Positions 4,431 through 24,804 of a DNA stretch of 64,000 bases are shown one piece after another. A program made the translations under genes and the position numbers. Under the pieces are notes generated by a model that saw nothing but the letters and a program-made list of their open reading frames with translations, had not been told where the DNA came from and searched no databases. The stretch spans positions 1 through 64,000 of the forward strand of contig CANJYB010000014.1 of NCBI GenBank assembly GCA_947479085.1. Reading direction: 5' to 3'. How positions within the stretch are numbered: position 1 is the first letter of the stretch; each line of letters begins with the position of its first letter. The stretch is from Bacteroidota bacterium. GTDB lineage: Bacteria > Bacteroidota > Bacteroidia > 2-12-FULL-35-15.

Positions 4431-6053
4431 ATGAAATTAAAAATTATTACCATCTTAACATTTATTACTGGCATCACATTTAATGGGAATGCTCAACTTC
4501 GTTTTCAAAAAACTATTGACTGTACAGGCAATGAATTTGGAAACATGTTTCAATCTTACAATGGTAACCTTTCTATTGTAGGAACTACCGATGCAACAGC
4601 AGGTAACGGAAACGACATTTTATTAATGACAACCGATTTAACGGGAACTGCATCTTCTAACTTATATGTAGGAGGTTTAGGAACTGAATTTGGAACAGCA
4701 ATGTACATTGCTAATACGACAGGAGAAACCACCATTGTTGGGCGTTCTAATGGTTTTTCTACAGCTCCGCCAAATGTTCAGGATGTATTTGCGGCTCGTT
4801 TGAACAGTTCCGGAATGCCTGTTTTTGCTAAGGTATTTGGTACAGACAGTATTGACTATGTGACCACCGTAAAAGAAGCAAATGATGGCGGAATCATTAT
4901 GGCAGGTAGAGTAAAAAACAATGACAGACTGGATGGTCTGGTAATTAAAATGGATGCTACCGGAACCATACAATGGTCAAAAAATGTTGGAACACCTTAT
5001 GCAAATGAAGTAATTTATGATGTAAAATCACTTGGAACCAACACAGGATATTTAGTAGCTGGTTATTCAGGTGTAAATACTATCGGATTAAATGATGCAA
5101 CCTTTTCTTTGCTTGCAAATGCCGATGGAGCTATGCAAGGTACATTTGTATTTGGTGGTGCTGGAGATGATGATGCACGCATGATTATTGACGGAGCGCA
5201 GGGGAAATTTTATATTGCCGGAAACACCCGTTCTTTTGGAGCTGGTTTAGGTGATATTTTTCTTGCCCGTTTTGATGTTAGCAATTTTCCTCCTACTTTG
5301 GATTGGATGAAAACATACGGTGGAGCTGGTGAAGATGCTTTTACATCGGCAGTAAGTAATGGAAATGGTGGTATAGTTATTACAGGTATTACTACTTCAT
5401 TTGGTACAGGAGGAGATGCACTAGCTTTTAAAGTGGATACTGCAGGGACATTGCTTTGGTCAAAAAACTATGGTGGCACATCTAATGATGCATTCCAAAG
5501 CATTATCAGCGATGGTGGCACAGGTTACACTGTGCTTGGGTACTCAAATTCGTATGGTGCCAATAATGATGTATGGATAGTAAATATGGATAGTACAGGC
5601 TCTACAGGATGTAATGAATCAGTTGCTGCTTTGGTATCTGGAACTCAAGCTGCCACTTACATTACCCCTCCTAATATGCCAACACTCGATTTCACATCAA
5701 ACGATATTGTATTGACAGACAGAGTAGCTAATTTTTCTCCTTCTTCTAATGTTACTTCTGAAAATGCTTTATGTACCACCGTTTCTGTAAATGATGCTGT
5801 GAACTCGAAAACAATTGCAGTATATCCCAATCCTTCTGCCGATATGGTAAATATTAATTTGGGAGAAAATGCTGCAGATGTAAAATCCATATCGGTATAT
5901 AATTATCTTGGTTCAAAAGTATTTGAAACAGCTACAGACGTAAACAAATCTGTTTATTCTGTTAATGTTTCCAATCTTGCAGCAGGGCTTTATACTTTGA
6001 TGGTAACTACCAATCATAAGCCATTAACTTTAAAAATTTCTGTAACAAAATAA
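4431..6053 (+). CDS. Secreted beta-propeller-like (SBBP-type) protein with T9SS sorting domain
   Basis: This 540-residue protein starts with a signal peptide (MKLKIITILTFITGITFNGNAQ). Residues about 30-420 hold repeats of about 50 residues with the pattern GGxGDDxxxxxxxxxxGxxxxAGxTxSFGxGxxDxxLxxxD, for example FGGAGDDDARMIIDG and YGGAGEDAFTSAVSNG; these resemble SBBP beta-propeller blades. The last 75 residues form a T9SS type A sorting domain (AVYPNPSADMVNINLG ... GLYTLMVTTNHKPLTLKISVTK). It is a single-gene unit: it has its own promoter upstream and a strong hairpin terminator 35 bases past the stop. Likely surface-exposed or secreted; ligand unknown. Confidence 0.88.
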   Translation: MKLKIITILTFITGITFNGNAQLRFQKTIDCTGNEFGNMFQSYNGNLSIVGTTDATAGNGNDILLMTTDLTGTASSNLYVGGLGTEFGTAMYIANTTGETTIVGRSNGFSTAPPNVQDVFAARLNSSGMPVFAKVFGTDSIDYVTTVKEANDGGIIMAGRVKNNDRLDGLVIKMDATGTIQWSKNVGTPYANEVIYDVKSLGTNTGYLVAGYSGVNTIGLNDATFSLLANADGAMQGTFVFGGAGDDDARMIIDGAQGKFYIAGNTRSFGAGLGDIFLARFDVSNFPPTLDWMKTYGGAGEDAFTSAVSNGNGGIVITGITTSFGTGGDALAFKVDTAGTLLWSKNYGGTSNDAFQSIISDGGTGYTVLGYSNSYGANNDVWIVNMDSTGSTGCNESVAALVSGTQAATYITPPNMPTLDFTSNDIVLTDRVANFSPSSNVTSENALCTTVSVNDAVNSKTIAVYPNPSADMVNINLGENAADVKSISVYNYLGSKVFETATDVNKSVYSVNVSNLAAGLYTLMVTTNHKPLTLKISVTK

Positions 6054-6783: not shown

Positions 6784-6831
6784 ATGAAAACAAAAAAAAT
6801 TATGGTGTTGTTTCACAATAGTAATAAATAA
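6784..6831 (+). pseudogene. Possible stub of a secreted-protein gene (15 codons)
   Basis: ATG at 6784 opens a 15-codon frame, MKTKKIMVLFHNSNK, in an AT-rich context like that ahead of the signal peptides in neighbouring secreted genes. It stops just before the 6834-6864 hairpin. It could be the decayed 5' end of a lost gene, a leader peptide or chance. Low confidence. Confidence 0.2.
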
Positions 6832-6833
6832 AA

Positions 6834-6864
6834 AAAGCCGGCAGGAATAATTCCTGCCGGCTTT
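6834..6864 (-). terminator. Intrinsic terminator of the large Ig-like repeat gene
   Basis: A 14-bp perfect stem (AAAGCCGGCAGGAA / TTCCTGCCGGCTTT) with loop TAA lies 18 bases past the minus-strand stop, followed on that strand by a T-run. Confidence 0.88.
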
Positions 6865-6882
6865 TCTAATAATTAAACTAAA

Positions 6883-9800
6883 CTATTTCACCATTGTTTT
6901 TGTAACAACAGTATGGTTTGATAAATCAGTTAATCTAACCATAAACACTCCGTTTTTCAAATCCGAAACATTTGTTTTTACAGTGGTAACACCAGCTGCA
7001 ACAAAATATTTCTGACTGATAACTTCAGCACCTAACAGGTTATAAACTTGTACCAATATATCTTTATCTACATCAGCCGTAACATCAATGTTAAGGAAAT
7101 CAGTAGCAGGATTTGGATAAATTCCGGAGAATGTATTTGTTCCGTCAGTCTCTGTATTATCCATTGATATTGGACTTGCACAGGTAGTAAGTGCAGCCGA
7201 TGAACGGTAAAGAGAAGTTCCGCAACCATTCACTGAAGCTACTTTTACCAATGAACCTGTAGGAGTGTTAACTGCAAACAGAACAGATATAGCATTGGTT
7301 CCAGAGCCTGAAACAATAGATGCACCAGCAGGAACTGTCCAGATATAAGAGGTAGCTCCGTTAATAGCAGCTATAGAATAGCTAACCGGGATACTTCCCG
7401 CTACCTCAGTACAGATAGAAGTTGAACCTGTAATGGTACTTGGCATTGCAGCCAATTTGGTTAATGCTAATGTTTTTGCAGCACTTGTAATACAAGTTCC
7501 AACAGATGCAACAGTAATTGATCCGGTCACAAAGTTAGAAGCAAAAGAAACAGTAACACTGGTAGTTCCTTGTCCGCTCACTAAAGTAGCGTTTGCCGGA
7601 ACAGTCCAGAAATAAGATAATGCACCTGTAACAGGAGCAATACTATAAGTATTTGGTGTTGCACTTTGAATAGCAGGGCAAACTACAGTAGTACCTGTAA
7701 TAGTTCCCGGAACCGGAGGACCAGCAACCACAGTTACACTTTTTGCAGCTGATAAAGAACAATTGTTAGAGTTTTTACAAGTGATAGCACCTGTTACATA
7801 ATTAGACGGAAACTGAACCACTATACTTGTTGTTCCTTGTCCGCTAACAATGGTAGCACCTGTTGGTACAGTCCATACATAACTTAAAGCAGCAGCGTTA
7901 GCGGCCACACTATAAGTATAAGTATTTGCCAAACAAAGGTCTGATAACTGACCAGTGATAGCAGTTGGAGCTGCAACAGCTGTTCTGGTAAGAGCAAGCG
8001 TTTTTGCAAGTGATGAACCACAACCTGAATTTCCTACCACTGTAATGTTACCTACAGCTGCTGTGCTATATGCTAATAAATGACAATCAACAGTTATAGA
8101 AGTTGTTCCTTGTCCGGATAATAAAGTAATTCCGGCAGGTACAGTCCATGTATAAGATAATGCAGTTGCAACAGGAGCTATAGAATAAGTAAGTGGAGTA
8201 GTTGTTCCAACATAGTTACAAACAGCAGCAGTACCGGTAATAACTCCCGGAGTTGTTGGTATTGTTCTGGTAATAGCCAATGTTTTTGCAACACCTGCAC
8301 CGCAGCCAGCAACTGCCGCTACCGTAATATTTCCTAATGCACCTGAACCAGATACACTATGATAATCAACCACAAGGCTTGTAGTTCCTTGTCCTGAAAG
8401 AATAGTAACACCTGCAGGTACAGTCCATAAATAAGAAGTAGCACCTGTAACAGTAGCAGCAGTATAAGTTAATGGAGTAGTAGTTCCTACATAAGCACAA
8501 ACAGCAGCTGTTCCTGTTAGTGTTAATGGAGTTGCAGGAAGAGTACTTGTAATGGCTAATGTTTTAGCAATACCTGCGCCACAACCGGAAACCGCTTGTA
8601 CAGTGATATTACCTAAAGCTCCTGAACCTGTTACACTATGAAAATCAACCACAAGACTTGCAGTTCCTTGTCCCGAAACAATTGTAACACCCGCTGGTAC
8701 TGTCCAAAGGTAAGATGAAGCACCTGCAACGCTTGAAGAAGTGTAAGTTAAAGGAGTTGTTGTTCCAACATAAGCACAAACTGCAGCAGTACCTGTTAAG
8801 GTAGTTGGAGTAGTAGGAAGTGTAGAAGAAATAGCATACGTTTTAGGAAGACTGGTACAACCTGCAGCAGAAACTGCAACTACAGAAATATTTCCAAGTG
8901 CCTGTGTTCCTGTTGCTGTGTTAAGAAAATTAACGTTTAAGCTGGTAGTTCCTTGTCCCGAAACAATGGTAACACCTGCAGGTACCGTCCATACATAAGA
9001 AGATGCTCCTGCAACAGCAGTAAAGTGATAATTAACCGAAGTGGATGTACCTACGTAAGCACAAACCGCAGCAGTTCCAGTAATAATTCCTGGGGTTGCC
9101 ATCGTTACAGTAACAGTCACTGTAGAAACTGCAGTATTAGAACATCCATTTGTAGAACCTGTAACGGTATAAGTAGAAGTTGCGGTTGGTGTAACACTAA
9201 CAGCAGCTGTAGTAGCACTTGTAGACCACAAATAAGAAGTAGCTCCTGAAGCAGTTAAGGTAGCTGAAGTACCTGCACAAATTGCAGGAGAGTTAACTGT
9301 AATAGTTGGTGTAGCATTTACTGTTACAACGATAGCTGCTCTTGGGCTTAAAGAAGAACCTTTAAATTGAGAAACATAATAAGTCGTTGTACCTGCAGTA
9401 GCAGTAGATGGAGTTGGAGCCGTTAAGCTGCCTGTTCCGCCTGTAGCTGTGGTATACCATCTTAAAGTATCTCCGCTTATTGCAGTTGCTGTTAATGGAG
9501 ATGCAGTAGCACCTACACAATAAGAAACATTAGATACCGTTGGAGGTGCAATGTAACTATCGAAAGTTAAACTTGGCAACATGATTTCTGTTCCGGTAGG
9601 ATTTGATGATACATAATTCTGATATTGACCAGAAACTCCAGTTCCAACTTGTATGTTCAAGTTAAAATGAAAATTACCATTAGTAGTAAACTGTCCAATC
9701 AAAACTCTGTTTGTTGAAGTAGGACCAGTAGAACCATTCAATGAAGCAATAGAACCATTCGATGTTGTAAAGGAGTTACCAGCATTGCTTGTTGCATCAA

Positions 9801-10353
9801 AAATAGCTTGTTGTCCTGCTGATATTCCAACAAAAGTAACACCTTGCGGAGTTCCTGCAATAATACCGTCCTGTGTTGTTAATGGAATTCCGGAATCACC
9901 ATCGTTATTCAAAAGCATGGTATTGGTAGTAATTAAATTAGCTGCACCATTGTCTTCCGATTTAAGAACACCCATTTGACCAGTAGCAGCAGCTCCCGCT
10001 GAAAACCATGAATCAAGCGCAACCGAATTGTTATGCAAGTATTGAGAACCAATAGTGTTAGGAGTAATAGCTCCTCTGTCTTCGTTATTAAAGAAAGAAG
10101 TAGAAGTACTGATGTTTATCGGATGAGCTGCAACACCATATATAGCTTGAAATTTATAACCTGCCAGCATATCGGCATATACTCTATAAGTAACAGAACC
10201 AGCAGGCAATGCCCCTATACTTCCTGTTGCATCAGCAGCATTGGAAGTATAATATCGTTCTACGATTACTTTTTCCAATCCATTTTGACCGTATGCCAAT
10301 CCGCCTGTTAAGGCAAGGACTAAGCCCAGTATTGTTGATTTTATCTTTTTCAT
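6883..10353 (-). CDS. Large secreted VIVExYY-domain protein with Ig-like repeats and T9SS sorting domain
   Basis: The 1156-residue product has a signal peptide (about 1-22), then an unrecognised domain of about 240 residues (NGLEKVIVERYY, TYRVYADM, YGVAAHP, SFFNNEDRG, LDSWFSAG, MGVLKSED, RVLIGQFTTNG). The same domain occurs in the proteins encoded at 15124-16524, 19656-20768 and 20801-21577. Ig-like modules follow (about 265-410), then seven PKD/Ig-like modules of about 93 residues with SYLWTVPAGVTIVSGQGT; modules 2 and 3 are nearly identical, so the array expanded recently. The end is a T9SS type A sorting domain (GIYPNPATDFLNIDV ... TKTMVK). It lies downstream of the beta-helix gene and may be co-transcribed with it. 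Likely a long surface fibre or adhesin; the domain's function is unknown. Confidence 0.9.
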   Translation of the reverse strand: MKKIKSTILGLVLALTGGLAYGQNGLEKVIVERYYTSNAADATGSIGALPAGSVTYRVYADMLAGYKFQAIYGVAAHPINISTSTSFFNNEDRGAITPNTIGSQYLHNNSVALDSWFSAGAAATGQMGVLKSEDNGAANLITTNTMLLNNDGDSGIPLTTQDGIIAGTPQGVTFVGISAGQQAIFDATSNAGNSFTTSNGSIASLNGSTGPTSTNRVLIGQFTTNGNFHFNLNIQVGTGVSGQYQNYVSSNPTGTEIMLPSLTFDSYIAPPTVSNVSYCVGATASPLTATAISGDTLRWYTTATGGTGSLTAPTPSTATAGTTTYYVSQFKGSSLSPRAAIVVTVNATPTITVNSPAICAGTSATLTASGATSYLWSTSATTAAVSVTPTATSTYTVTGSTNGCSNTAVSTVTVTVTMATPGIITGTAAVCAYVGTSTSVNYHFTAVAGASSYVWTVPAGVTIVSGQGTTSLNVNFLNTATGTQALGNISVVAVSAAGCTSLPKTYAISSTLPTTPTTLTGTAAVCAYVGTTTPLTYTSSSVAGASSYLWTVPAGVTIVSGQGTASLVVDFHSVTGSGALGNITVQAVSGCGAGIAKTLAITSTLPATPLTLTGTAAVCAYVGTTTPLTYTAATVTGATSYLWTVPAGVTILSGQGTTSLVVDYHSVSGSGALGNITVAAVAGCGAGVAKTLAITRTIPTTPGVITGTAAVCNYVGTTTPLTYSIAPVATALSYTWTVPAGITLLSGQGTTSITVDCHLLAYSTAAVGNITVVGNSGCGSSLAKTLALTRTAVAAPTAITGQLSDLCLANTYTYSVAANAAALSYVWTVPTGATIVSGQGTTSIVVQFPSNYVTGAITCKNSNNCSLSAAKSVTVVAGPPVPGTITGTTVVCPAIQSATPNTYSIAPVTGALSYFWTVPANATLVSGQGTTSVTVSFASNFVTGSITVASVGTCITSAAKTLALTKLAAMPSTITGSTSICTEVAGSIPVSYSIAAINGATSYIWTVPAGASIVSGSGTNAISVLFAVNTPTGSLVKVASVNGCGTSLYRSSAALTTCASPISMDNTETDGTNTFSGIYPNPATDFLNIDVTADVDKDILVQVYNLLGAEVISQKYFVAAGVTTVKTNVSDLKNGVFMVRLTDLSNHTVVTKTMVK

Positions 10354-10468
10354 ATTTTTTGTTGTTTTTGTTGTTTAATTTAGTTTCCAACTTTTTCCTT
10401 TCTAAACAAGAGTTCTCCTGAGCCCCTCCCGGAGCGGGAAGAGAAAACTTGCATTTTCTACTTTTCCT

Positions 10469-10499
10469 TTTACCATCTCCCTGAAAGAGAGATGGTAAA
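10469..10499. repeat. Palindromic repeat between beta-helix and Ig-like genes
   Basis: Arms TTTACCATCTC / GAGATGGTAAA (11 bp) enclose a 9-base loop. A smaller G+C-rich palindrome (CCCGGAGCGGG) lies just before it near 10426-10440. No T-run follows on the minus strand, so it reads as an intergenic repeat or mRNA-processing structure rather than a terminator. Confidence 0.6.
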
Positions 10500-10543
10500 G
10501 GTTAAAGTATAGTTAAAGAATAGATTGGTTTATTGTTTGTTGA

Positions 10544-12394
10544 TTAAGGACAAGATTGGTTAAAGTTTCCAAGCAAGATTAAGAAATCTATATTGTCAGT
10601 CATACCATCCTGATTAATATCAGTAGGGCATGGAGCTAAACCACCAGTTGTTTGTAACAAAGTAGCATAAGCCCAACCAGATAACCATGATGGACCTGAA
10701 CCAAAAGCACCTCTGTAGTTTTCAGGTGTAAAGAAACCATCAGCAGGAGCAACTATTGAAGTAGCTAACACTGGACTTGGAGTAGCATCGTATTGAGTAG
10801 AAACAGCATTGCTTGTTCCGTTCATTGTCCAAACACCGTTGAATCCCGGGATTGAAGCAGCACGAACGTTTCCGTCTGTTTGGAAAAACTGAGTAGTATC
10901 AGCAGTTGTTACTGCGTGAGCAGCTACGTTTAAAGAATAAGCTCCACTTCCTGAACTTCTTGTTACGTTCTTAACCAAATAAGCTCCACCTGGATTAGTA
11001 GCTGAAGGCAAAGCACCTGCAACACCTGTTCCCATTCCGATAAATGTATTGTTTTTAATAATTAAAGTATTTGGAGTATTGTTGTTTCTCCAGTTGTCGT
11101 AAGAATCAGTTACAGATGCACCTGCTGAACTTGTGGTAGCACTTCTTGTTCCTTGTTGTGCCTGATTACCAGTCCAAAGGTTTAAACCTGAAGCAAAGTT
11201 TGCAAATACGCAGTTGTAAATTTCACCTTCTGTTAATTCTTTTGCACAAATAGCAGACATTCCTGTATTATCAGAATTTTCTACTCTTTTGTTTGATCCT
11301 ATAAAAGTACAGTTGTAAATTACAGGGTGAGAACGGTATCCTCCTGAAGCAAGAGTTCCAATAGCAACTCCTGAACCATTTCCTGATTGTTGATCATCAG
11401 CATCCATTTCAAAACCATTATCCATTGCGGATGCAATAGTTGATGCTCCTGAAGTAGAAGTAAAAGATGTATCAGCTGAACCAAAACCTACAGAGAAAAC
11501 ATTCTGAACTTTTCCGCTGTAACCTAAATCCCAGTCAAACATATCATCATTTCCAAACATGAAAGTAGCGTTTTTAACATTTACAGTTCCTCCGAAAAAT
11601 TCCATATTGTCATCTGCATTAGCTATTACTTCCACATGGTCCACAGTAGTACCTCTTCCAACTGAAGCGAAAGTAATACCATTGATCTCTCCGCCCTGTA
11701 CCAAAATAGAACCTGAATAACGAACAGAAACATATCTTAAAATACCTGAATTGTCATTGTCATCAAAGTTAGTAAGGTATCCTGATTGAGCAGTAGTAAG
11801 GTTTACACCAAACTGATTTCTGAAATCGGTAGTTCCGAATCCTTCAAGAGTACCAAGACCATTAGCAACACAAAGTCTTCCGTTTCCTGTTGCGTTAAAA
11901 GGTCCATTACCAGCAAGGGTTAAATTGTTAGAGGCTTGTCCACATAACATTAATCCACCCCATTTACCCATATTATGAGTAGCATAAGTACCATCCATTG
12001 GGTCTGCCTGTGCAGTAATTACTATCCCGCAATCTGCTGTTCCATCAGCAAAAATTTTACCTCCTCTTGAAACTACAAGTGCAGAAGCTGTTGCAGCGGT
12101 TACAGTAGCTGTTGCTTTGATAACAGTACCTGGTTGTATGGTTAATGTTAAACCATTAGGCACATAGATTTTTTTATCCAATATCCATAACTTGTCACAA
12201 GTAAGAATAGTGTTTACTAATAAATCACCATCTCCTGCACCGCCATTCACTGCAAGTGTGGAAAGGTTAACTGACGGTCGCGATGCCACAGCCGGACATC
12301 CGCATGCTGCACCAAGGTTGGTCTGAGCCACACCCGGTGTCATTGAAACGAAAGCAAGCACTGCTGTCGCGATTAAGGTTGAAATTTTTTTCAT
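10544..12394 (-). CDS. Secreted right-handed beta-helix protein with dockerin-like C-terminus
   Basis: This 616-residue protein has a signal peptide (MKKISTLIATAVLAFVSMTPGVAQ). The body is typical of parallel beta-helix surface proteins of Bacteroidota: KIYVPNGLTLTIQPGTVIKA, KWGGLMLCGQ, LRYVSVRYSG, VDHVEVIANADDNMEFFGGTVNVKNATF. The C-terminal residues DINQDGMTDNIDFLILLGNF match the calcium-binding loop pattern of dockerin type I repeats, but only one copy is present and there is no T9SS sorting domain. Proteins of this type are often encoded near TonB-dependent receptors, as here. It has its own promoter (12552-12559) and a leader of about 150 bases. It is probably exported; the route and partner are unknown. 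Confidence 0.85.
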   Translation of the reverse strand: MKKISTLIATAVLAFVSMTPGVAQTNLGAACGCPAVASRPSVNLSTLAVNGGAGDGDLLVNTILTCDKLWILDKKIYVPNGLTLTIQPGTVIKATATVTAATASALVVSRGGKIFADGTADCGIVITAQADPMDGTYATHNMGKWGGLMLCGQASNNLTLAGNGPFNATGNGRLCVANGLGTLEGFGTTDFRNQFGVNLTTAQSGYLTNFDDNDNSGILRYVSVRYSGSILVQGGEINGITFASVGRGTTVDHVEVIANADDNMEFFGGTVNVKNATFMFGNDDMFDWDLGYSGKVQNVFSVGFGSADTSFTSTSGASTIASAMDNGFEMDADDQQSGNGSGVAIGTLASGGYRSHPVIYNCTFIGSNKRVENSDNTGMSAICAKELTEGEIYNCVFANFASGLNLWTGNQAQQGTRSATTSSAGASVTDSYDNWRNNNTPNTLIIKNNTFIGMGTGVAGALPSATNPGGAYLVKNVTRSSGSGAYSLNVAAHAVTTADTTQFFQTDGNVRAASIPGFNGVWTMNGTSNAVSTQYDATPSPVLATSIVAPADGFFTPENYRGAFGSGPSWLSGWAYATLLQTTGGLAPCPTDINQDGMTDNIDFLILLGNFNQSCP

Positions 12395-12811
12395 TTTTTT
12401 GTTTTTGTTTAATTGATTTTGTTTAATTGATTGATTACTCTTTTTTTTGATGTTTAATTTAATTACTCTTGATTTTACTGGTAGACTTTCTGTTTTTTTT
12501 AATGATTTGGTTTAGATTGATTAACATTTAGATTTGATTATTTTACCGAGACAAAAGTAAATGGAGGATATTGTGGGAAGATTATTGAAATATTATAAGA
12601 AGTAAATTATTGAGATAACTAAATGTTATGAAATAAATATATTTATTAACCACAAATTAACATTAATTAAAATAATTGAAGGACAACTTTGTTAGTTCCG
12701 ATTGCTCTTTCCTATGGGAAAGTATTTTGTTCTAACAATAAAAAAAACTATACCTTGCAAGGGCCTCTTTAGAACGAATTGAAAACTTACTGATATTTTT
12801 GCCCGGCCAAG
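12395..12811. other. Gene-free stretch, 417 bases
   Basis: Very AT-rich. It contains the promoter and leader of the beta-helix gene and, near 12690-12726, a weak hairpin (CTTTCC / GGAAAG flanked by GTTAG / CTAAC) that may terminate the preceding minus-strand operon. Nothing else was recognised. Confidence 0.6.
12552..12559 (-). promoter_or_regulatory. Bacteroidota -7 element for the beta-helix gene
   Basis: TACTTTTG on the minus strand matches TAnnTTTG; no clear -33 TTG was found. It lies about 158 bases before the ATG, implying a long AT-rich leader. Confidence 0.5.
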
Positions 12812-13405
12812 CTAATGTGCAGCTACAACCTTTCTTGCTACCGTCAGTAATCTATCAAATGTTACTTTGTCGGTTAAATAATAAACGCAGAATTTAAAAA
12901 CCCTGTTTTGTTTTCTTACAATAATAAAAGGTTGATTCAAAGCATCATATTGCATATAGGCTTCATCCCCTAAATCCTTCAAAAGCGTTATGCTGCCCAT
13001 ATTTGTATGTTGTGTTTTCATAAACCGGTATATTTCATTCGAAGCGGCAGTGTCTTTATACTGTTCGAAGTTAAAGAACAATGCACCCTTTGAAGTGGAA
13101 TCAACATAGGTAGCCACGTAATTAATTACATAACGCAGCACCCCACTGGAATATTTATAGCTGCTATCTTTTACAGAAACCGGTTTAGCTATTATCGAAT
13201 AGGCATCATTAGTAGTTACAAAGTATTTCGAAACCATAGCACTGTCCAAAATATTCTGCACGGCCAATTTGTTGTTGGGCATTTTGGTAAAATCCAATTG
13301 AGAAAAACAAGCAGAAGAAATCAAAAAGAAAAAAACAATTAAGCCCTTTCTATTAGGCACAGAATAAAAAGCACCATGTGCTTTATTGAAAAAATTTGAA
13401 TTCAT
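12812..13405 (-). CDS. Small secreted protein of unknown function
   Basis: The 197-residue product has a hydrophobic export segment at about 22-36 (LIVFFFLISSACFSQ), preceded by a rather long N-terminal tail; the tail could mean that the true start lies downstream, but no other Met fits. The mature part (about 160 residues) is a mixed alpha/beta sequence with no recognised motif. The gene is 15 bases downstream of the beta-barrel gene and is the last of the tandem minus-strand group that begins at 21577. It has no T9SS sorting domain, so a periplasmic or outer-membrane-associated location is more likely than T9SS export. Confidence 0.75.
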   Translation of the reverse strand: MNSNFFNKAHGAFYSVPNRKGLIVFFFLISSACFSQLDFTKMPNNKLAVQNILDSAMVSKYFVTTNDAYSIIAKPVSVKDSSYKYSSGVLRYVINYVATYVDSTSKGALFFNFEQYKDTAASNEIYRFMKTQHTNMGSITLLKDLGDEAYMQYDALNQPFIIVRKQNRVFKFCVYYLTDKVTFDRLLTVARKVVAAH

Positions 13406-13420
13406 ACTATTATTTTGAAA

Positions 13421-14287
13421 TTAGTTTTTCGCGTTTTTATCCATCTTCTTCGAAGAGCAATTGAGATGAGGAGTAAACACTACCCCAACAGTTACTCCAA
13501 AGGAATACAAATACCCCTTTACAGGAGCATTTATTATGGAAGTAATTGAACGTGTATAAATCGGTTCCAGTTTTAAATTTGTTTTTTTACTAATAGGGTA
13601 ACTTAAACCAAATCCTGCCATTACAGAAAAATTTACCCTGTTAAAATCATTGTCCGTTTTAGTAAGAGTTTTTTCAGTGCTATTAGCATGGGTTATGCTA
13701 ATAGTCGTTTTTTGAAACAACAATACATTAGCTGCACCCCCGGCAGTTATATATGCTTTAAGCTTACCGTTTAAAAAATAATAATCCACTTTTAAAGGAA
13801 TATCAAGATAATAATAATGAAAATTATACGAATACTGAGCTGCCTCCTGCCCGTAAGGCAATCTTTCTAAAGTATATTTTTTTGTTTTCTCTCCTTTATC
13901 CGAAAAAAAAGCCCCTGTTTCAATATTAATTTTTTCAGTAAGCTTATAAGCAATACTTATTCCAGCCGTATATCCAAACTTAGGAATTTCTAAAGTGTCG
14001 CGCATTTCTTTTATTAAATCACTCGATTCATCTCCATTCGATTTTAAAGTTCTGAAACAATACATTGGAGAAAAAGAAATACCCATTTCAAACTTGCTTG
14101 TTTTAGTAGTATCAACTATTTTGTTTGCAACACTTGTTTTGGCAGAATCCAAAACTTTTGGAGATTCTGTTTTAATTACATTATTAATTGTCTTTGCAGA
14201 ATCAATTAATTTGATTGAATCATTCGTCTGGCTGCATAATGCAAGAGGAAAAAGAAGCACAGATATAAATACAGCTATTTTATTCAT
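13421..14287 (-). CDS. Outer-membrane beta-barrel protein (PorT-like/porin family)
   Basis: This 288-residue protein has a signal peptide (MNKIAVFISVLLFPLALCSQ), then a low-complexity stretch (about 22-66) and a series of amphipathic strands (FEMGISFSPMYCF, FGYTAGISIAYKL, INIETGAFFSDKG, YYYLDIPLKVDYYF, LKAYITAGGAANVLLF, VNFSVMAGFGLSYPI, TNLKLEPIYTRSI, YLYSFGVTVGVVF). This is the pattern of the outer-membrane beta-barrel family common in Bacteroidota. The gene lies 19 bases downstream of the FISUMP lipoprotein gene and 15 upstream of the small secreted protein gene. Its specific role is unknown. Confidence 0.8.
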   Translation of the reverse strand: MNKIAVFISVLLFPLALCSQTNDSIKLIDSAKTINNVIKTESPKVLDSAKTSVANKIVDTTKTSKFEMGISFSPMYCFRTLKSNGDESSDLIKEMRDTLEIPKFGYTAGISIAYKLTEKINIETGAFFSDKGEKTKKYTLERLPYGQEAAQYSYNFHYYYLDIPLKVDYYFLNGKLKAYITAGGAANVLLFQKTTISITHANSTEKTLTKTDNDFNRVNFSVMAGFGLSYPISKKTNLKLEPIYTRSITSIINAPVKGYLYSFGVTVGVVFTPHLNCSSKKMDKNAKN

Positions 14288-14306
14288 TATTAATTATTGT
14301 TTTTCC

Positions 14307-15038
14307 TTAATCCTTAACACATCTAACACTAAATCCGTAGTTCTTTAAGCCATAATACCTGAACACATTTGCATTTTTATAATCAAGGTATCGGTACCAG
14401 GCTTCATTGCCATGAGAAGTGGATGTCCACCAGAAACCAGTTGCTGATTGACCCGGGTTACCCATGGTTCCATCAAACATTCGGCATCCGTTTGCAACAG
14501 CACTAAATCCGCTTTCGTTGGTCGACCATACAGTAGCATACTCAGCCCATCCAAAAGTTGCACCTCTTTCTACTTTCATTTGTTCTCCTTCATGTGTACC
14601 TCTCCATCCCGTTCCATCAGCGTCACCCTGGCTCATTCCCAGATATTCTTCCAATACTTTCCATTCATTATCAGATGGGATATGCCAACCTGCTGGGGCT
14701 ATTCCTCGCGAATCGTTCACTGCTTCCCAGTTATAAAACTTCCCGATAACAATACCCTGACTGTTAAGAATATTACAATAAGCACCAGCCGTAGCATGGC
14801 CCCAGGTGGTATCCTGAATAGCTAATGGTATAAAACTACTATCCCGATATTTGGTTGTTCTTAAGTCCTCGGCCATCCACCATTGGCTGCCAATTTTTAC
14901 AGTTTGGTAAGTAATGCCACTCACATCAGTAACAGAGCCTGTTTCCTGCACCGGTTTTTCTGTTTCTTCTTTTTTCTTACAGCCATTTATTATTAATAAA
15001 AATAATAAGCTGATGAATAGTATTGTTTTTGATTTCAT
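14307..15038 (-). CDS. FISUMP-domain lipoprotein
   Basis: This 243-residue protein starts with a lipoprotein signal (LLFLLIINGC, acylated Cys at about residue 20, followed by KKKEETEKP). It then matches the Fibrobacter succinogenes major paralogous domain: DVSGITYQTVKIGSQWWMAEDL, GKFYNWEAV, APAGWHIPSDNEWKVLEEYLG, GWRGTHEG, TNESGFSAVANGCRM, GFWWTSTSHG, and the typical ending NYGFSVRCVKD. Such proteins are exported cell-surface lipoproteins of unclear function. It sits between the short VIVExYY protein gene (15124-16524) and the beta-barrel gene, in the same direction. Confidence 0.9.
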   Translation of the reverse strand: MKSKTILFISLLFLLIINGCKKKEETEKPVQETGSVTDVSGITYQTVKIGSQWWMAEDLRTTKYRDSSFIPLAIQDTTWGHATAGAYCNILNSQGIVIGKFYNWEAVNDSRGIAPAGWHIPSDNEWKVLEEYLGMSQGDADGTGWRGTHEGEQMKVERGATFGWAEYATVWSTNESGFSAVANGCRMFDGTMGNPGQSATGFWWTSTSHGNEAWYRYLDYKNANVFRYYGLKNYGFSVRCVKD

Positions 15039-15123
15039 TATTTAAAAAAAATAATTTTATTTTTTACCACTTTTAAAATGCACAGAAACGCTTATTGCAC
15101 TTAGTATCTTAAAGGTGGTTTTT

Positions 15124-16524
15124 TTAATTCTTCATAAATGTTTTACTCTGTACACTTCCTCCCGTATAAACCCTTACAAGATATAAACCCACCTGATAAG
15201 AAGACACATCCACTACTTGTGTAATAGTTCCTGAACGAATCCCAAGGTCTCTGTCCTCTACCACTGTTCCAAAAGAATCATAAATAGTGTACTTTACTTC
15301 CTGGTTAACACCAGCGCTAATTTCCAGATTTACAATATCAACTGCAGGATTTGGAAACAACCTGAAACCAGTTTCGCTGGTAATACCCGGGCAAACCAAA
15401 CTTATATCCCTGTCGTTGCACCTACCCGGATAACAACATAAACTCTGTATATTAAAATTGGCACTTGGGTCGTAATTACAAGCTAATGTATCCATACAAC
15501 CAAAAACAATGGTGTGAATACAATAGATGCTATCAACATAACAAGGAGCGTTTGGATTATATTCCAGGTAATTGGTATTTCCACATCCACAAACCGGAAT
15601 ATCACGTGGATACTTAAGCATTCCAAGAACAGTGGTGTCAACACCTACGGTATCACAGTTTCCGGCAGTAGCCACAAAGTTTAATAAATCTCCATTATGT
15701 ATTCCTCCTGTAGAATCCATTACTTCCACATTTAATTCAAAACTAAGTTCTCCTAAAGTTGTAAACTGCCCTACCAAAACTTTATGCCCTGTTGCCGAAT
15801 CTCCAGAAACACCACCATTCTGCTTAAGATAAGCAGCGGTATTGTAAAAAAGCGAACCAACATTTACAGAGCCAAACACAGTTGTATCGTTACCTGTGGT
15901 TGGAAGCCCTGAATCATTAAAACCTGCATCCGACCAAACAGTATAGGGTTCCTGTGCCGGAACCATACCATCAGCCGTATCCACAGGTATATGCGCTGCA
16001 GTATCATTGTTTATTAATAATCCCGAAGCGATACCGGCAGTTCCCCCATTATTTAGTAAACCACCAATTAAAGAACCATTATAATCATCACGTTTTAATA
16101 CCCCGGCATAATTAACAGTGTTTGTTTTAGCGCACAACCCTAAGGTAAGCCAACTATCCAAAGCCAGCAGGGGGTTACTAGGGAAATATTGCTTCTTTAT
16201 CAAATAGCCAAAATATTCATCGGGGCGGTCAATATTGTTGTAAAATATTCCTGTACTTGCAATTTTTAAAGGATGACATTCTGTTCCATAAACTTTACGA
16301 AGTTTATACCCAGAATCTAACTGAACATATACTCTATAGGTAATAGAACCTCTTTGTAAAAAAGGAGTGGCATATGTTGGATCATTTTGCCAGTTAGTGC
16401 TATCTGTTGCATCCAAGCTATCCGAAATATAGTATTTCTCTACTATCACATCTCTTATTTGTCCATCCATTCCTTTTGGGAATACCAAAATGGATAAGAG
16501 GAGAAGGGTTAAAAGTTTTTTCAT
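15124..16524 (-). CDS. Secreted VIVExYY-domain protein with Cys-rich segment and T9SS sorting domain
   Basis: This 466-residue protein has a signal peptide (about 1-21) and the shared domain in its most divergent form (DVIVEKYYISDSLDATDS, SITYRVYVQLDSGYKL, VYGTECHPLKI, IFYNNIDRP, LDSWLTLG, AGVLKRDDYNG, KVLVGQFTTLGELSFELNVEV). A Cys-rich linker (about 310-370) follows, containing the common Bacteroidota surface motif GCMDTLACNYDPSANF. The last 80 residues are a T9SS type A sorting domain (LFPNPAVDIVNLEI ... SVQSKTFMKN). Its ATG is only two bases past the TonB-receptor stop, so the two are surely co-transcribed, which suggests that protein and receptor act together. Confidence 0.88.
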   Translation of the reverse strand: MKKLLTLLLLSILVFPKGMDGQIRDVIVEKYYISDSLDATDSTNWQNDPTYATPFLQRGSITYRVYVQLDSGYKLRKVYGTECHPLKIASTGIFYNNIDRPDEYFGYLIKKQYFPSNPLLALDSWLTLGLCAKTNTVNYAGVLKRDDYNGSLIGGLLNNGGTAGIASGLLINNDTAAHIPVDTADGMVPAQEPYTVWSDAGFNDSGLPTTGNDTTVFGSVNVGSLFYNTAAYLKQNGGVSGDSATGHKVLVGQFTTLGELSFELNVEVMDSTGGIHNGDLLNFVATAGNCDTVGVDTTVLGMLKYPRDIPVCGCGNTNYLEYNPNAPCYVDSIYCIHTIVFGCMDTLACNYDPSANFNIQSLCCYPGRCNDRDISLVCPGITSETGFRLFPNPAVDIVNLEISAGVNQEVKYTIYDSFGTVVEDRDLGIRSGTITQVVDVSSYQVGLYLVRVYTGGSVQSKTFMKN

Positions 16525-16526
16525 TT

Positions 16527-19500
16527 TTATAACTTATATGTAATGCTTAATAGATAATTAGTGCCCCAACGATATTGGTCTTTAATAATATCATACCCTC
16601 CATCGTAATATATTTTTCGGGTAACGGGCTGATTCAAAATATCCTTTATTGTAAAACTTACACTCCAGTTTTTAGCTACTTTCTTAAATTTCTTGGTTAC
16701 CTTAAAGTCAAGCTGGTGACGAGGCATTTCATACGTATCGCCTAAAAACTCAGAGGCAGAACCAATAACAACCCTTTTTCCCTGCAAATTATAACTCACC
16801 GTTGCTGTTAATCCTAACGAATCGGATGTATAGGATAAAATTCCATTGATTACATAAGGTGCTTGCCCGAACATGGTACGTTTTACGGTATCAAGATTAT
16901 AAGTAATAACAGAAGTACCTACCACTTCATTTCTTGTACGCACATATTCAGTATAAGACTGAGCCAGGGTAATGTTGGCAGTAAAATCCAACCCCTTTAC
17001 TATTTTTTTCCTTCCCTCAATTTCTATTCCCTTTACATTAGCAATATCCACATTGGTCCACGTATATCTCTCTCCTCTGATTAGCTCAATATGATTTTTG
17101 AAATCTTTATAAAATACACTGATGGATACATTATCTTTATTTTTAAAATAAGACTCTATCCTGAAGTCATAGTTTTTTACCTCCACCATTTTAAGGTTAG
17201 GATTCCCGGTTACATTTAACCTAAGTTCATTATCAAAAGTGGTAATATTTGATATTTCTCTGAGGCTAGGGCGGGCTAAAGTTTGGCTATAGCCCAAACG
17301 AATATTAGTAGGACTTTCTTCCTTATTAATTAATTTATAAACGATGGTGGCACTTGGCAAAATATTGGTTTGTTTTATACTTCCAATTGTGGCAGGTAAC
17401 TCACCAGCCAAATAAAATCTCCGTGGGTCGTCATTTGCTAATCCCATTGAATCAAATTTAGTTACATCAGTAAGCATGTCGGTTGTTTCTATTCTTAACC
17501 CACCAGATACACGTATGCGCGGAATAATAGTAAAATCAGCCATCAGGAAAGCGGCTGCTATTTTACTGTGACCAAATGAATGGTCAGTAGGGGATTGGAA
17601 AAGGTTGTAATACCAGTTGAGTGTACTGAAAGGAACACCACCATTATCGCCATGCGAAATGCCAAACTGATCTAAGTTAAGATATGCATTCAGGTCATCG
17701 TTTTCCATATGAGGAGCGTTCAAACCATCTTTTCCAAGAAAATAATGGTACAGATCATTCTTTGTTTTATCTTCTTGATAAGCTCCTCCTAATTTTAACT
17801 TCCGGGTAAGCCCTGGCTTTTCACCAATGGGTATTTCTATACTACCATGAGAATCAAAAAGGTTATCAGAAAGATAACGGTAATAGCGGTCAATAGACTT
17901 GCTGCTTGGGTCGAGACTATAAATGTGGGTAACGGGGTTGCTCTCATATTGTAAATATTTAAAATCAGGTGCATTACTGTTTCCCTTGGTATAAGATGCA
18001 TTCAATTCCACTTTGGTTTTAATGTTCGGAATATAATGTTCGGATTTAAACTGGTAAATCATTTGTTTCCGGGCTTCATAAAATTGCGAAACAGTAGTCA
18101 ACGTATTTTCTTCGTCATACCCTTTTCTTACTTTATTTACTCCGATAAGGTTGGGCATAAACATAAAGCCTACTGTATTATTTGGGTTAACCTTGTAAGC
18201 TAAATTAACCAAAGCACTCCAGCCATTCGTTTCATCACTTGCTTCCGCGTCCAAATGAGAATCCACAATACGGGTTCCCGACTTTTGCTCTTCTAATATA
18301 GCATGGGGGTCGTACAGCGTTGCGCTCCCATACCTGAAACCGGCAACAAACCCAAGTGGTTTACCAAACAAACTTACTTGGTCACCCACGGTAAAACTTT
18401 GACTGAAACTAAGTGGTGCTTTTCGTTTGGTGGTATTCCAGTTGTTTGGAAAAGATTTGCCGGTAGCTGCAGCATCTTTATTAACAATATCAAATGCTGT
18501 AGAATGATAACTGCCGTTGTCGAATGCGCTAGTAGCGGCAATTACTGCTGTATTATCATTAATCAATGCAGGAGCGAGCAAACCAAGTTGCACCAAACCC
18601 AACTTAAAATATAAAAGTCCTTCGTTACTTCCCTCTGCCCAACCTGTTACACCCAAGCTTTTATAATAATCTCCTAATCCAAGCGCCACCATCTCCTGAT
18701 ATTGGGTTGGGTCCGGGTTTGTAGAGTGAAATTGAGTATGGTTGTATTCCCTGTAGGTATTATCATATCCCAGCCAATCGGTTTTGCTTCTTTCAGAAGT
18801 AATCACATCTTTACCTGTTGTTTGTGCATTGTAGCCAACAGTACTTTCAATACTTACAGTAAGTGCATCAGGGTAGTCCTTTGTTTCCACCGAGATATAA
18901 GCACCGGCATAATCCCCCGGCATATCTGGACTTGCTGTTTTTGTAATAATGACATTATCTACCAGGCTGGCCGGAAACATATCTAATTTAATATTATTGG
19001 TAAATGGGTCTAGAGTTGGAATCCGGTTTCCATTGACAGTAGTTTTTACATAGCGGTCACCAATCCCTCGGACTGTTATAAATCCTCCATTAGTAGAAAC
19101 ACCCGCTACACGCGCCACAGCTGCTACCACATTGGCATCACCTGTTTTCTTCATTGTTTCAGAAGAAATGTAATCAATCGTGGTAGAAGAATTTTGTTTT
19201 ATACGCTCCATGTAGTAGGACTTATCCTTAGTGGCTTTGGTAGATATTTCCACTACATCTAATGCTTTTGCACTGGCCTCTTCCATCACAAAATCCTTTA
19301 CAATTACTTGGTTATTCAAAACACGGATTTCCTGCTCGATGGTTTGATAACTTACATAGGAAATAGTTATAACCTGCGCCAAAGAATCTTTCATCTTTAA
19401 AGAAAAGTTACCATCAAAATCAGTAACAGTGCCGATAGAAGGATTTGATTTTAACGCAATGGTAACACCAATCAAGGTTTCCCCATTTTTATCGCTAATC

Positions 19501-19580
19501 TTTCCCCTAACGGTCCCTTGAGAAAAAGAAGAAGTGATTGAAATAAATGTAATACAAAAAAGAAGAGTTAGTTTTTTCAT
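16527..19580 (-). CDS. TonB-dependent receptor with carboxypeptidase-regulatory-like N-domain
   Basis: This 1017-residue protein has a signal peptide (MKKLTLLFCITFISITSSFSQ), a carboxypeptidase-regulatory-like domain (about 22-105: GTVRGKISDKNGETLIGVTIAL ... GTVTDFDGNFSLKM), a plug (about 130-235: VAAVARVAGVSTNGGFITVRGIGDRYVKTTVNG) and a long beta-barrel ending YLLSITYKL. It belongs to the SusC-like/TonB receptor superfamily of Bacteroidota, which imports ligands across the outer membrane using TonB-ExbBD. No SusD-like partner lies beside it; instead it is flanked by VIVExYY proteins (75 bases upstream, 2 bases downstream). Substrate unknown. A palindrome sits in the gap before its start. Confidence 0.93.
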   Translation of the reverse strand: MKKLTLLFCITFISITSSFSQGTVRGKISDKNGETLIGVTIALKSNPSIGTVTDFDGNFSLKMKDSLAQVITISYVSYQTIEQEIRVLNNQVIVKDFVMEEASAKALDVVEISTKATKDKSYYMERIKQNSSTTIDYISSETMKKTGDANVVAAVARVAGVSTNGGFITVRGIGDRYVKTTVNGNRIPTLDPFTNNIKLDMFPASLVDNVIITKTASPDMPGDYAGAYISVETKDYPDALTVSIESTVGYNAQTTGKDVITSERSKTDWLGYDNTYREYNHTQFHSTNPDPTQYQEMVALGLGDYYKSLGVTGWAEGSNEGLLYFKLGLVQLGLLAPALINDNTAVIAATSAFDNGSYHSTAFDIVNKDAAATGKSFPNNWNTTKRKAPLSFSQSFTVGDQVSLFGKPLGFVAGFRYGSATLYDPHAILEEQKSGTRIVDSHLDAEASDETNGWSALVNLAYKVNPNNTVGFMFMPNLIGVNKVRKGYDEENTLTTVSQFYEARKQMIYQFKSEHYIPNIKTKVELNASYTKGNSNAPDFKYLQYESNPVTHIYSLDPSSKSIDRYYRYLSDNLFDSHGSIEIPIGEKPGLTRKLKLGGAYQEDKTKNDLYHYFLGKDGLNAPHMENDDLNAYLNLDQFGISHGDNGGVPFSTLNWYYNLFQSPTDHSFGHSKIAAAFLMADFTIIPRIRVSGGLRIETTDMLTDVTKFDSMGLANDDPRRFYLAGELPATIGSIKQTNILPSATIVYKLINKEESPTNIRLGYSQTLARPSLREISNITTFDNELRLNVTGNPNLKMVEVKNYDFRIESYFKNKDNVSISVFYKDFKNHIELIRGERYTWTNVDIANVKGIEIEGRKKIVKGLDFTANITLAQSYTEYVRTRNEVVGTSVITYNLDTVKRTMFGQAPYVINGILSYTSDSLGLTATVSYNLQGKRVVIGSASEFLGDTYEMPRHQLDFKVTKKFKKVAKNWSVSFTIKDILNQPVTRKIYYDGGYDIIKDQYRWGTNYLLSITYKL

Positions 19581-19601
19581 ATAAGAGCCTCACCCCATTA
19601 T

Positions 19602-19622
19602 CCCCTCTCTAAATGAGAGGGG
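19602..19622. repeat. G+C-rich palindrome in the gap before the TonB receptor
   Basis: CCCCTCTC-TAAAT-GAGAGGGG lies between the VIVExYY gene stop (19656) and the receptor start (19580). There is no T-run. It may be an intergenic repeat insertion or an mRNA-stability hairpin lowering or separating receptor expression. Confidence 0.65.
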
Positions 19623-19655
19623 GGAGGGCGTTTAAAAAATTAGGTGAAGTTTCTT

Positions 19656-20768
19656 TTAATATTTAATTATTTTCTTTGTAGATTTAACTCCGTTTAAAGT
19701 GGTCTCAATAAAATATATTCCTTTTGCAAATGATGATATATCAAGTTTCTCAACATATTTACCTGAAATAGTTCCAAGGTCTTTACTAGAAATAACATTT
19801 CCGATTACATCAAATATCCTGTAAGAATTTGAATTTATTTTATCAGAAGAAGTAATATCAATAGTCACTACATCACTTGCAGGGTTAGGATAAATATCGA
19901 TCGAAGAGGATGGCGAAGCTGCAGGCTGGTCAACTAAACCAACAGTGCAACTATTATAATTAAGGAAACTTGCAAGAATTTCATTTCCGTTGGGTGCTGT
20001 AGCAACATAATTTTCATATTGAGAACTACCATTAGGCAAGCCTATTTGAATATTTAAATGAAATTCAAAACAACCATCAGTTGTAAACTGACCGACCAAC
20101 ACCCTATTAGTTGTTGCTGAATCGCCATAAGAACCATTTAGAGACGCAACAGAACCATTGGAAGTAGTGAAAAGACCACCTACCTGACTAGTACCATCCA
20201 AAACACCTAAATCACCATTGCCTGTGTTGTTAATTCCAACAAAGGTAACCGCTTCAGGAGTTCCCAGAATAATACCATCCTGTGATGTTAACGCTATGCC
20301 AGCCCAAGGATCATTGTTTTGTAAAAGTGAGTTTGGCATCAAAATATTTGAAACACCATCATCATCAGCCTTTAATACACCTATATGACCGTTGCCTGCA
20401 GATCCAACCGAAAACCAGGAATCCAAACCAACTGTTCCATCATTCCAAAATGGTGTATTAATTCCATTTGGTGTAGTAGCTCCTCTATCTTCATTATTAA
20501 AGAAAGTAGTGGTAGTAGAAACCGTAAAAGGATGTCCAGTTACTCCGTACATAGCTTGAAACCTGTACCCCTGACGCATATCAACAAATACCCTATATGT
20601 TTTTGAACCAACAGGTAACGTACCAATACTATTATTGGCATCATTTAAGTCAGAAACGTAATAGGATTCTACAATAACATTTTCCAGTCCGTTTTGAGCA
20701 AGAACACAAGTTCCTAAAAAGCTAAGTGCCATGCCCATTATTAATTTTTTTGTTGTAGTTTTTTTCAT
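19656..20768 (-). CDS. Secreted VIVExYY-domain protein with T9SS sorting domain
   Basis: This 370-residue protein is the simplest full form of the family: signal peptide (about 1-24), one copy of the shared domain (NGLENVIVESYYVSD, KTYRVFVDMRQGYRFQAMYG, TTTFFNNEDRGATTPNG, LDSWFSVGS, IGVLKADDDG, TSQDGIILG, NRVLVGQFTTDGCFEFHLNIQIG, NYVATAPNGNEI), then a T9SS sorting domain (IDIYPNPASDVVTIDI ... KSTKKIIKY). It is closest to the N-terminal domain of the 1156-residue protein, for example in FFNNEDRG and FTTSNGSxASLNGS. It is 32 bases downstream of the next paralogue and 75 upstream of the TonB receptor. Probably surface displayed; function unknown. Confidence 0.9.
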   Translation of the reverse strand: MKKTTTKKLIMGMALSFLGTCVLAQNGLENVIVESYYVSDLNDANNSIGTLPVGSKTYRVFVDMRQGYRFQAMYGVTGHPFTVSTTTTFFNNEDRGATTPNGINTPFWNDGTVGLDSWFSVGSAGNGHIGVLKADDDGVSNILMPNSLLQNNDPWAGIALTSQDGIILGTPEAVTFVGINNTGNGDLGVLDGTSQVGGLFTTSNGSVASLNGSYGDSATTNRVLVGQFTTDGCFEFHLNIQIGLPNGSSQYENYVATAPNGNEILASFLNYNSCTVGLVDQPAASPSSSIDIYPNPASDVVTIDITSSDKINSNSYRIFDVIGNVISSKDLGTISGKYVEKLDISSFAKGIYFIETTLNGVKSTKKIIKY

Positions 20769-20800
20769 CTTATTTATAGTTTAGTTGATTAATTGTTTTA

Positions 20801-21577
20801 TTAGTTTTTTAATGTAAGCCCTTCAAATTTTATCTCCTTACCTTCCGGGTTTTTAGCCACATAATTTAATGTTGCCCCATTTGGGGTTCCTATCTGAAGA
20901 TTAAGCTCAAACGAAAGTTTTCCTGAAGTGGTTAGTTGGGCTATTAACACTTTGTTTTCATTTGTTGCTCCCTTCATACTTCCGAAAACAGCCCATGACC
21001 CATTATTTCCTGAAAAAGAAGAGGCCCCGCTGGGATTATTAAAAAACTTGAGGTCGAAGCCAAAGAAAGTAATGGGCTTTATTTTGCTTGCTATCAAACC
21101 ATCAGCTTTTGCCATTGCATTACTTTTTATAATTGAACCATCAGTATCTTCCACTTTCATAATCCCATTGTGCTCATCAGTAGCAGCACCTATTGTTATC
21201 CATGAGTCGAAAGCCGCAGTACTGTTAGTTATTTTTTTATCATCTATTTTATCCCCGCTTATATCACCTGATTGGGTATTGTTAAAAAATGTGGTAGTAG
21301 TTTTAATAAAGAGTTCATGATTGGTAACGCCATAAACAGCCTGAAGTTTATAATCCGGTTTCATGTCAACATAAATTCTATACGTCACTGCGCCTTCGGG
21401 GAGAGCACCTCCGGCAGTATCCAAAACATCTTTAGCGTCATAGCTATAATACTTTTCGACTATTACTCCTTCCAAAGCCAACTTATCAGCCTCTGTAATC
21501 TCTTTCTTGGCTTGCGCTTCTGCTGAAAGACTCATAAAAGATAAGCAAAACAGAAATAAATAGGAATAAATTTTCAT
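20801..21577 (-). CDS. Secreted VIVExYY-domain protein without sorting domain
   Basis: This 258-residue protein consists of a signal peptide (about 1-22), a short charged linker and the shared domain alone (LEGVIVEKYYSYDAKDV, VTYRIYVDMKPDYKLQAVYG, TTTFFNNTQSG, FDSWITIGA, GIMKVEDTDG, NKVLIAQLTTSGKLSFELNLQIG, NYVAKNPEGKEIKFEGL). It ends directly after the domain, with no T9SS sorting domain, so unlike its paralogues it may stay in the periplasm or be anchored differently. It is the first gene of the tandem minus-strand group; only a degenerate promoter-like element was seen upstream. It is useful for defining the domain's C-terminal limit. Confidence 0.88.
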   Translation of the reverse strand: MKIYSYLFLFCLSFMSLSAEAQAKKEITEADKLALEGVIVEKYYSYDAKDVLDTAGGALPEGAVTYRIYVDMKPDYKLQAVYGVTNHELFIKTTTTFFNNTQSGDISGDKIDDKKITNSTAAFDSWITIGAATDEHNGIMKVEDTDGSIIKSNAMAKADGLIASKIKPITFFGFDLKFFNNPSGASSFSGNNGSWAVFGSMKGATNENKVLIAQLTTSGKLSFELNLQIGTPNGATLNYVAKNPEGKEIKFEGLTLKN

Positions 21578-23443: not shown

Positions 23444-23446
23444 AAC

Positions 23447-23797
23447 TTATCGCAGTTTATTAGTAAGAGTATCGGGGAAAACCACGCTTGGGTTAAATTT
23501 CTTTGCCAATTCAAAATCCATTGAAGCATAAGATACAATTATAATATGGTGGCCTACACTTACTTTTAAAGATGCCGGGCCATTCAGGCAAATAATACCA
23601 GAACCTCTTTCTCCTTTTATTACATAAGTAGAAAGGCGTTCACCATTATTGTAGTTAAACACGTCTACCTTTTCATTTTCAATAAGGTTTGCCGCATCCA
23701 TTAAATCTTCGTCAATAGTAACGCTACCTATATAATCAAGGTCTGCCTGTGTAACGGTAACCCTGTGAATTTTTGATTTTAAAACTTCTATTTGCAT
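23447..23797 (-). CDS. panD: Aspartate 1-decarboxylase
   Basis: This 116-residue protein has the normal length for PanD, which makes beta-alanine from aspartate for pantothenate and coenzyme A. The proenzyme cleavage site is intact at Gly24-Ser25 ([18 protein letters not shown]), where Ser25 becomes the pyruvoyl cofactor. The active-site Tyr is seen in [22 protein letters not shown] and the oligomer-core region in [31 protein letters not shown] -7 box lies 8 bases before the ATG, which would give an almost leaderless mRNA. It is the first gene of a panD, UPF0104, rfaE2-like group. Confidence 0.96.
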
Positions 23798-23805
23798 AAT
23801 GAGTG

Positions 23806-23813
23806 CAAAACTA
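23806..23813 (-). promoter_or_regulatory. Bacteroidota -7 element for panD
   Basis: TAGTTTTG matches TAnnTTTG and is followed by CACTCATT and then the ATG, placing the transcription start within a few bases of the start codon. Confidence 0.5.
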
Positions 23814-24798: not shown

Positions 24799-24804
24799 AT
24801 AAAA

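Follow-up and report, generated by a model that had tools for sequence, protein, structure and literature searches.

A conserved Bacteroidota gene cluster that may assemble proteins at the cell surface by pairing a displayed domain with dockerin-like tails

In cellulosomes, secreted enzymes carry C-terminal dockerin repeats and the partner domain, the cohesin, is displayed on cell-anchored proteins. Classical dockerins consist of two repeats. Dockerin-like modules are also known from numerous genomes beyond those with classical cellulosomes, frequently with no obvious partner. Here we describe a nine-gene cluster in a 64,000-nucleotide stretch of DNA (the window; contig CANJYB010000014.1, positions 1–64,000, of the Bacteroidota bacterium assembly GCA_947479085.1), in which four secreted proteins (A, B, C and D) share a domain and are encoded beside a TonB-dependent receptor, a FISUMP lipoprotein and a beta-helix protein with a dockerin-like tail. 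We put the chance that this cluster is a cell-surface assembly system, working like a small cellulosome with the domain as socket and the tail as plug, at about 0.5; the best reading of the encoded proteins is that the domain acts as a receptor for the beta-helix tail.

Going by the passages of its description on which we draw, the nearest published case is the cellulosome-like complex of Ca. Stygibacter (Cloacimonadota), which shares with our cluster the setting of Gram-negative-type cells and C-terminal dockerins on secreted enzymes (PMC8542988). Those passages place recognisable cohesins on a scaffoldin of 3,755 residues with carbohydrate-binding modules (CBMs), and describe a conserved domain at the scaffoldin's C-terminus that serves to attach it to the surface, for which the authors cite a review of the type IX secretion system (T9SS); unlike our cluster, the complex they describe has true cohesins, and they mention neither a TonB receptor nor a beta-helix partner (PMC8542988). 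Relative to cellulosomes in general, the cluster shares dockerin-like C-terminal repeats on secreted enzymes and a candidate partner displayed on cell-anchored proteins. It differs in that this partner is a domain of about 230–250 residues for which neither homology nor a fold match to cohesins was detectable, in that anchoring is via T9SS, in that the TonB receptor, FISUMP lipoprotein and beta-helix protein are fixed members, and in that the tail frequently consists of one repeat flanked by cysteines and the cargo is not mainly cellulases. Our literature search found the combination of domain, TonB receptor and dockerin-like tail in no paper.

The four domain-bearing open reading frames (ORFs), all on the minus strand, lie where an earlier note on this DNA had placed them, and that note's four architectures also held. 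D (20801–21577, 258 residues) is a signal peptide and the domain only, without a T9SS tail, whereas C (19656–20768, 370 residues) joins the domain (about 19932–20699) to a T9SS type A tail (Por_Secre_tail, about 19665–19895). B (15124–16524, 466 residues) follows its domain (about 15556–16464) with a Cys-rich GCxDxxACNYDP segment (residues 313–369; 15418–15588) and a Por_Secre_tail (about 15142–15360), and A (6883–10353, 1156 residues) carries the domain (about 9532–10290), an Ig_7 domain, seven PKD_6 domains and a Por_Secre_tail (about 6889–7122). The T9SS type A sorting domain (PF18962/TIGR04183) scored above cut-off in A, B and C and had no match in D or the beta-helix protein. Similarity among the four domains is far beyond chance, from BLASTP E 9e-89 and 55% identity for the closest pair (A/C) to about 1e-19 and 31% for the most distant (B/D). 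The proposed size of 220–240 residues needed correction to about 230–250, with insertions within the B copy. A search of the 4.28-Mb genome revealed no fifth copy.

The note's view that the domain belongs to no named family was upheld: it had no match in Pfam, NCBIfam, PHROGs or, by sequence, the PDB, and we rejected assignment to a known family (Big_7 of Pfam was touched by three of 130 homologues). A viral origin was likewise rejected, since 107 pattern matches in viral contigs yielded no confirmed relative. Structure prediction, which the note had proposed as a check, gave a confident, mostly beta AlphaFold2 model from the 130 homologues (mean predicted local distance difference test score, pLDDT, 94.9; predicted template modelling score, pTM, 0.93) with no significant match in the PDB or BFVD. 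An 857-residue fragment from another genome (G101, L235:1-2571) combines a repeated partial match to the C-terminal strands of the domain (AQLTTSGEIDVRFNIQW) with a tail, a hint of a larger superfamily containing the domain.

The cluster is conserved. A genome scan recovered 72 named Bacteroidota loci, nearly all from metagenome-assembled genomes and many evidently from lakes or groundwater, judging by isolate names. In most of these, and in relatives, the gene order D, C, TonB receptor, B, FISUMP lipoprotein, (outer-membrane barrel), (197-residue protein), beta-helix protein, A recurs across families, and flanking genes vary from genome to genome. The domain occurs in 16 of 59 relatives, usually as three or four copies together; in a phylum-wide sample only 4 of 393 genomes matched, one (G423) weakly, indicating that the system is patchy within the phylum. 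By position, a T9SS-like tail was present in 47/50 C, 55/56 B and 3/45 D proteins and in 24/24 of the A proteins not cut by a contig end; the contrast between one tailless and three tailed forms, seen by the note in a single genome, is conserved by position. The three tailed D copies are atypical or mislabelled; clusters were called from stop-to-stop ORFs with position-based labels, and a few rearranged loci (e.g., L021, L040 and L051) are mislabelled.

What the earlier note overlooked is the tail of the beta-helix protein (10544–12394, minus strand, 616 residues). Its last 28 residues, CPTDINQDGMTDNIDFLILLGNFNQSCP (residues 589–616; 10547–10630), form a dockerin-type-I-like calcium-loop repeat and recur in nearly all complete orthologues, with the consensus CPTDINxDGxTNxxDFLxLLGxFxQSC. 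A 31-member alignment shows no variation at the P, T, D, N, T and D positions, and the repeat has the loop D-x-N-x-D-G-x(5)-D followed by a helix, as in dockerin type I (PF00404); among 23 tails, D4 and D15 are invariant and N6, D8 and G9 exceed 90%. The mean frequency of the major residue is 0.71 in the tail, 0.64 in the body and 0.47 in the intervening linker. An AlphaFold model separates a good beta-helix from a disordered linker (pLDDT<50) and an isolated helix (578–587) of moderate confidence. Nine loci (L023, L024, L025, L028, L032, L039, L044, L048 and L076) show a tail variant, NPTD...GKFGQ, without flanking cysteines, and G486 has Cys and non-Cys types at two loci.

The body of this protein is that of the widespread Bacteroidota beta-helix proteins of the A3 superfamily, found in 279 of 393 sampled Bacteroidota genomes; since the superfamily is so common, presence of a beta-helix protein says little. 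Matches to other A3 members mostly end before the tail (about profile position 380–525 of 559), unlike the cluster-type protein with its two-repeat or single-repeat dockerin tail, and among the matches listed those running through the tail came only from domain-positive genomes.

Tail and domain are closely co-distributed. Across two sets, 54 of the 57 genomes with the domain had full-length or strong tails (E<1e-8), against none of the 82 without it. Among relatives the counts were 15/16 positive and 0/43 negative; the sole tailless positive (G007) has a cluster contig that ends early, and the 43 negatives contained only partial EF-loop matches (E>=1e-5). The second set gave 39/41 positive and 0/39 negative, the best negative being G233 (2.8e-7 over 23/28 positions). 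This tracking of the domain by the tail makes a role in assembly likelier than simple capture and import of a ligand.

Tails also extend beyond the cluster. Thirteen domain-positive genomes encode further tailed proteins, including endonuclease I, glucose/sorbosone dehydrogenase, a trypsin-like protease, a metallophosphoesterase protein and CBM48-type starch-binding proteins, and many of these extra tails show the tandem pair of repeats that characterises true dockerins. The richest case, G101, has six domain copies and 55 tail matches on about 40 ORFs (24 with E<=1.3e-6), among them endonuclease I, glucose/sorbosone dehydrogenase and a trypsin-like protease. Its cluster contains domain proteins with T9SS anchors, a tailed beta-helix protein and two proteins (L236:5913-7400 and L236:7361-8539) that join the domain to two dockerin-like repeats without a T9SS tail and so represent an adaptor form; anchors, adaptors and cargo are thus arranged as in a cellulosome.

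In most retrieved proteins the tail, single or double, ends 0–3 residues from the C-terminus, usually in place of a T9SS tail on what is otherwise typical T9SS cargo. This placement is what would be expected if the tail were instead a C-terminal sorting signal, read by the outer-membrane parts of the cluster or by another machine, with the domain proteins as co-inherited adhesins or matrix that do not bind it. We regard that explanation as improbable, because the repeat also occurs near the N-terminus of FISUMP lipoproteins (G462 and G485; L273:5753-6517 and L272:2408-3772), internally (L240.51, residues 288–314 of 589) and, in G047, upstream of a C-terminal T9SS tail (Pfam-confirmed Por_Secre_tail in L257:1578-3548), and therefore behaves as a portable binding module not bound to the C-terminus.

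From the observed cluster, its conservation, its architectures and the co-distribution of domain, receptor and tail, we propose that it assembles proteins as follows. Three T9SS-anchored proteins would display the socket domain externally, each with a different reach: short in C, with a Cys-rich spacer in B and on a long PKD stalk in A. The plug would be the dockerin-like repeat, probably calcium-binding, found at the end of the beta-helix protein. Other genomes have it at the ends of additional secreted proteins and of enzymes, and all of these could attach to domain proteins at the surface. Because the beta-helix protein has no T9SS tail, it would be held there by pairing with a T9SS-tailed domain protein, and riding along with such a protein is an economical guess at how tailed proteins cross the outer membrane. 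D, probably periplasmic, would be a socket kept inside that holds the beta-helix protein there. The TonB receptor and FISUMP lipoprotein are obligate outer-membrane partners that may serve product uptake or act as a docking base, and the receptor may instead signal. A more specific claim, to which we give somewhat less than even odds, is that the domain is a non-homologous equivalent of cohesin, a new class of T9SS-displayed socket with which Bacteroidota hang enzymes lacking T9SS tails, and the beta-helix protein, on their surface, possibly ferrying them across the outer membrane.

If the domain is indeed the partner in Bacteroidota, orphan dockerins would gain a receptor, plug-and-socket assembly at the cell surface would be seen to have arisen with another kind of socket, and proteins without a T9SS tail would have a further, T9SS-linked route to display. 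The four hypothetical proteins and the conserved cluster of nine genes are open to direct testing as one system, and might yield a new orthogonal binding pair of use in protein engineering.

Several points limit or weigh against this assembly model. Since the beta-helix gene belongs to the cluster, only extra tails provide independent evidence for it; full-length extra tails occurred in 13/57 positive versus 0/82 negative genomes (p 4e-6; p 4e-5 with the partial G233 match of 2.8e-7 counted as 1/82), and those on other contigs only in 10/57 positives (p 8e-5 to 6e-4), but these values ignore phylogeny and the genomes are phylogenetically related. The window's own tail is a single repeat and, at E 0.012 and 16.2 bits, falls below the Pfam cut-off of 22.9 for Dockerin_1, which the two-repeat tails of L084, L256 and L259 pass. 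Nor is the domain detectably related to cohesins: hhalign against three PDB type I cohesins gave a probability of 0.2%, which led us to reject profile homology; several type II cohesins recurring among weak Foldseek rows (probability <=0.15, template modelling score about 0.25) are at noise level, and we took them as no more than a lead towards the cohesin jelly-roll fold; and the cohesin family (PF00963) was absent at E<=0.01 from Pfam matches of the 130 homologues, the genomes themselves not having been scanned for cohesins. With neither profile similarity nor a significant fold match, we do not class the domain as a cohesin. Finally, co-occurrence with the tail is no poorer for the receptor than for the domain, which makes the receptor another candidate partner of the tail.

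That receptor (16527–19580, minus strand; N-terminal CarbopepD_reg_2 and Plug) is the only one of its type in the genome and lies exactly two bases before B, as the earlier note reported. The note had asked for co-occurrence across genomes, and the link to this receptor type and to the beta-helix protein was found: the receptor (E<=1e-60) and domain occur in the identical 16 of 59 relatives (Fisher p 9e-15), and within the genus the two go together (13/13 versus 0/23, p 4e-10). Neither outcome that would have told against the note, a match to a known domain or homologues placed away from TonB receptors, was observed. The note read this linkage as capture and import, with A, B and C binding a ligand at different distances, the receptor importing it, D receiving it in the periplasm and the beta-helix protein processing or binding at the surface. 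The invariable receptor linkage fits such a scheme, as do the conserved tailless form and the invariant charged or polar residues (E9, R34, D91, D111, D139 and Q202), which could form a ligand site; over 130 sequences these and G140 are invariant (numbering of the C domain, counted from residue 26 of protein C).

The cluster also resembles TonB/SusCD-type uptake loci of Bacteroidota in having a CarbopepD_reg-like N-terminal TonB receptor adjoining surface proteins. It differs from them in that we recognised no SusD or glycoside hydrolase among its proteins, the lipoprotein (14307–15038, minus strand; lipobox LLIINGC), conserved beside B, being Fib_succ_major (FISUMP). The receptor reached only 63 bits, over its N-terminal part, against the SusC/RagA (TIGR04056) cut-off of 368, and matched OMP_RagA_SusC and TonB-Xanth-Caul below cut-off only. 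Thus the surface system of the note stands, tied to one receptor type and a beta-helix protein, but its importing function remains conjectural: we recognised neither catabolic genes nor a SusD-like protein nor an inner-membrane transporter in the cluster, and import leaves unexplained both the dockerin-like tails on unrelated enzymes that track the domain and the domain-tail fusion in G101. An importer is possible but unlikely, and is not the best-supported core of the system.

The domain phylogeny bears on another alternative, an adhesive fimbria-like or biofilm matrix in which the four domains would attach to one another or else to the surface of a host or particle, with A and C exchanging sequence within genomes because they must match. 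In our tree the B copies group in one clade of 52 (Shimodaira–Hasegawa-like support 95), D copies fall in a few blocks, and A and C intermix. Median A–C identity is 52.7% within a locus versus 45.7% between loci, an effect absent from B and D, and together with the intermixing it points to A and C having exchanged sequence or co-adapted to some extent; stalk length also varies among loci, as an adhesive role might predict. However, the A–C similarity is not large and plain gene conversion could account for it, strong concerted evolution is weakened by the 48.6% identity of A–A pairs between loci, and adhesion leaves the tail association unexplained. We therefore hold a matrix function to be about as improbable as a sorting signal.

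The remaining members of the cluster, also on the minus strand, are an outer-membrane beta-barrel protein (OMP_b-brl_2; 13421–14287), present in part of the clusters, and a 197-residue secreted protein of no recognised family (12812–13405), found in close relatives only. Intergenic gaps are 32 bases (D–C), 75 (C–receptor), 2 (receptor–B) and 85 (B–FISUMP), then 19 and 15; with this spacing, D through the 197-residue gene could form a single transcript. Wider gaps precede the beta-helix gene (417 bases) and A (190). The array closes with a terminator-like hairpin of 17 pairs (6831–6867, minus strand) 15 bases past A, the longest stem in a region where terminator-like sites in total match the shuffled background and promoter-like sites are at background level.

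Upstream of D lie polyphosphate kinase, Ppx/GppA-type phosphatase and SixA-like genes (22424–28641), and ppx-ppk also adjoins the cluster in G030. Past A, judged by eye, are an 881-residue protein with WNN-type photosystem/BNR-like repeats and a T9SS-type C-terminus (1703–4348, minus strand) and a further T9SS-tailed protein (4431–6053, plus strand). A different downstream neighbourhood, with GH1-like, glycosyltransferase and metallophosphoesterase genes, is shared by G015, G032 and G056. One lineage (L055, L061, L067 and L083) has an extra pair directly upstream of the cluster, a TonB receptor and a T9SS-tailed beta-helix protein, of which only the beta-helix is visible on the stretch retrieved for L083.

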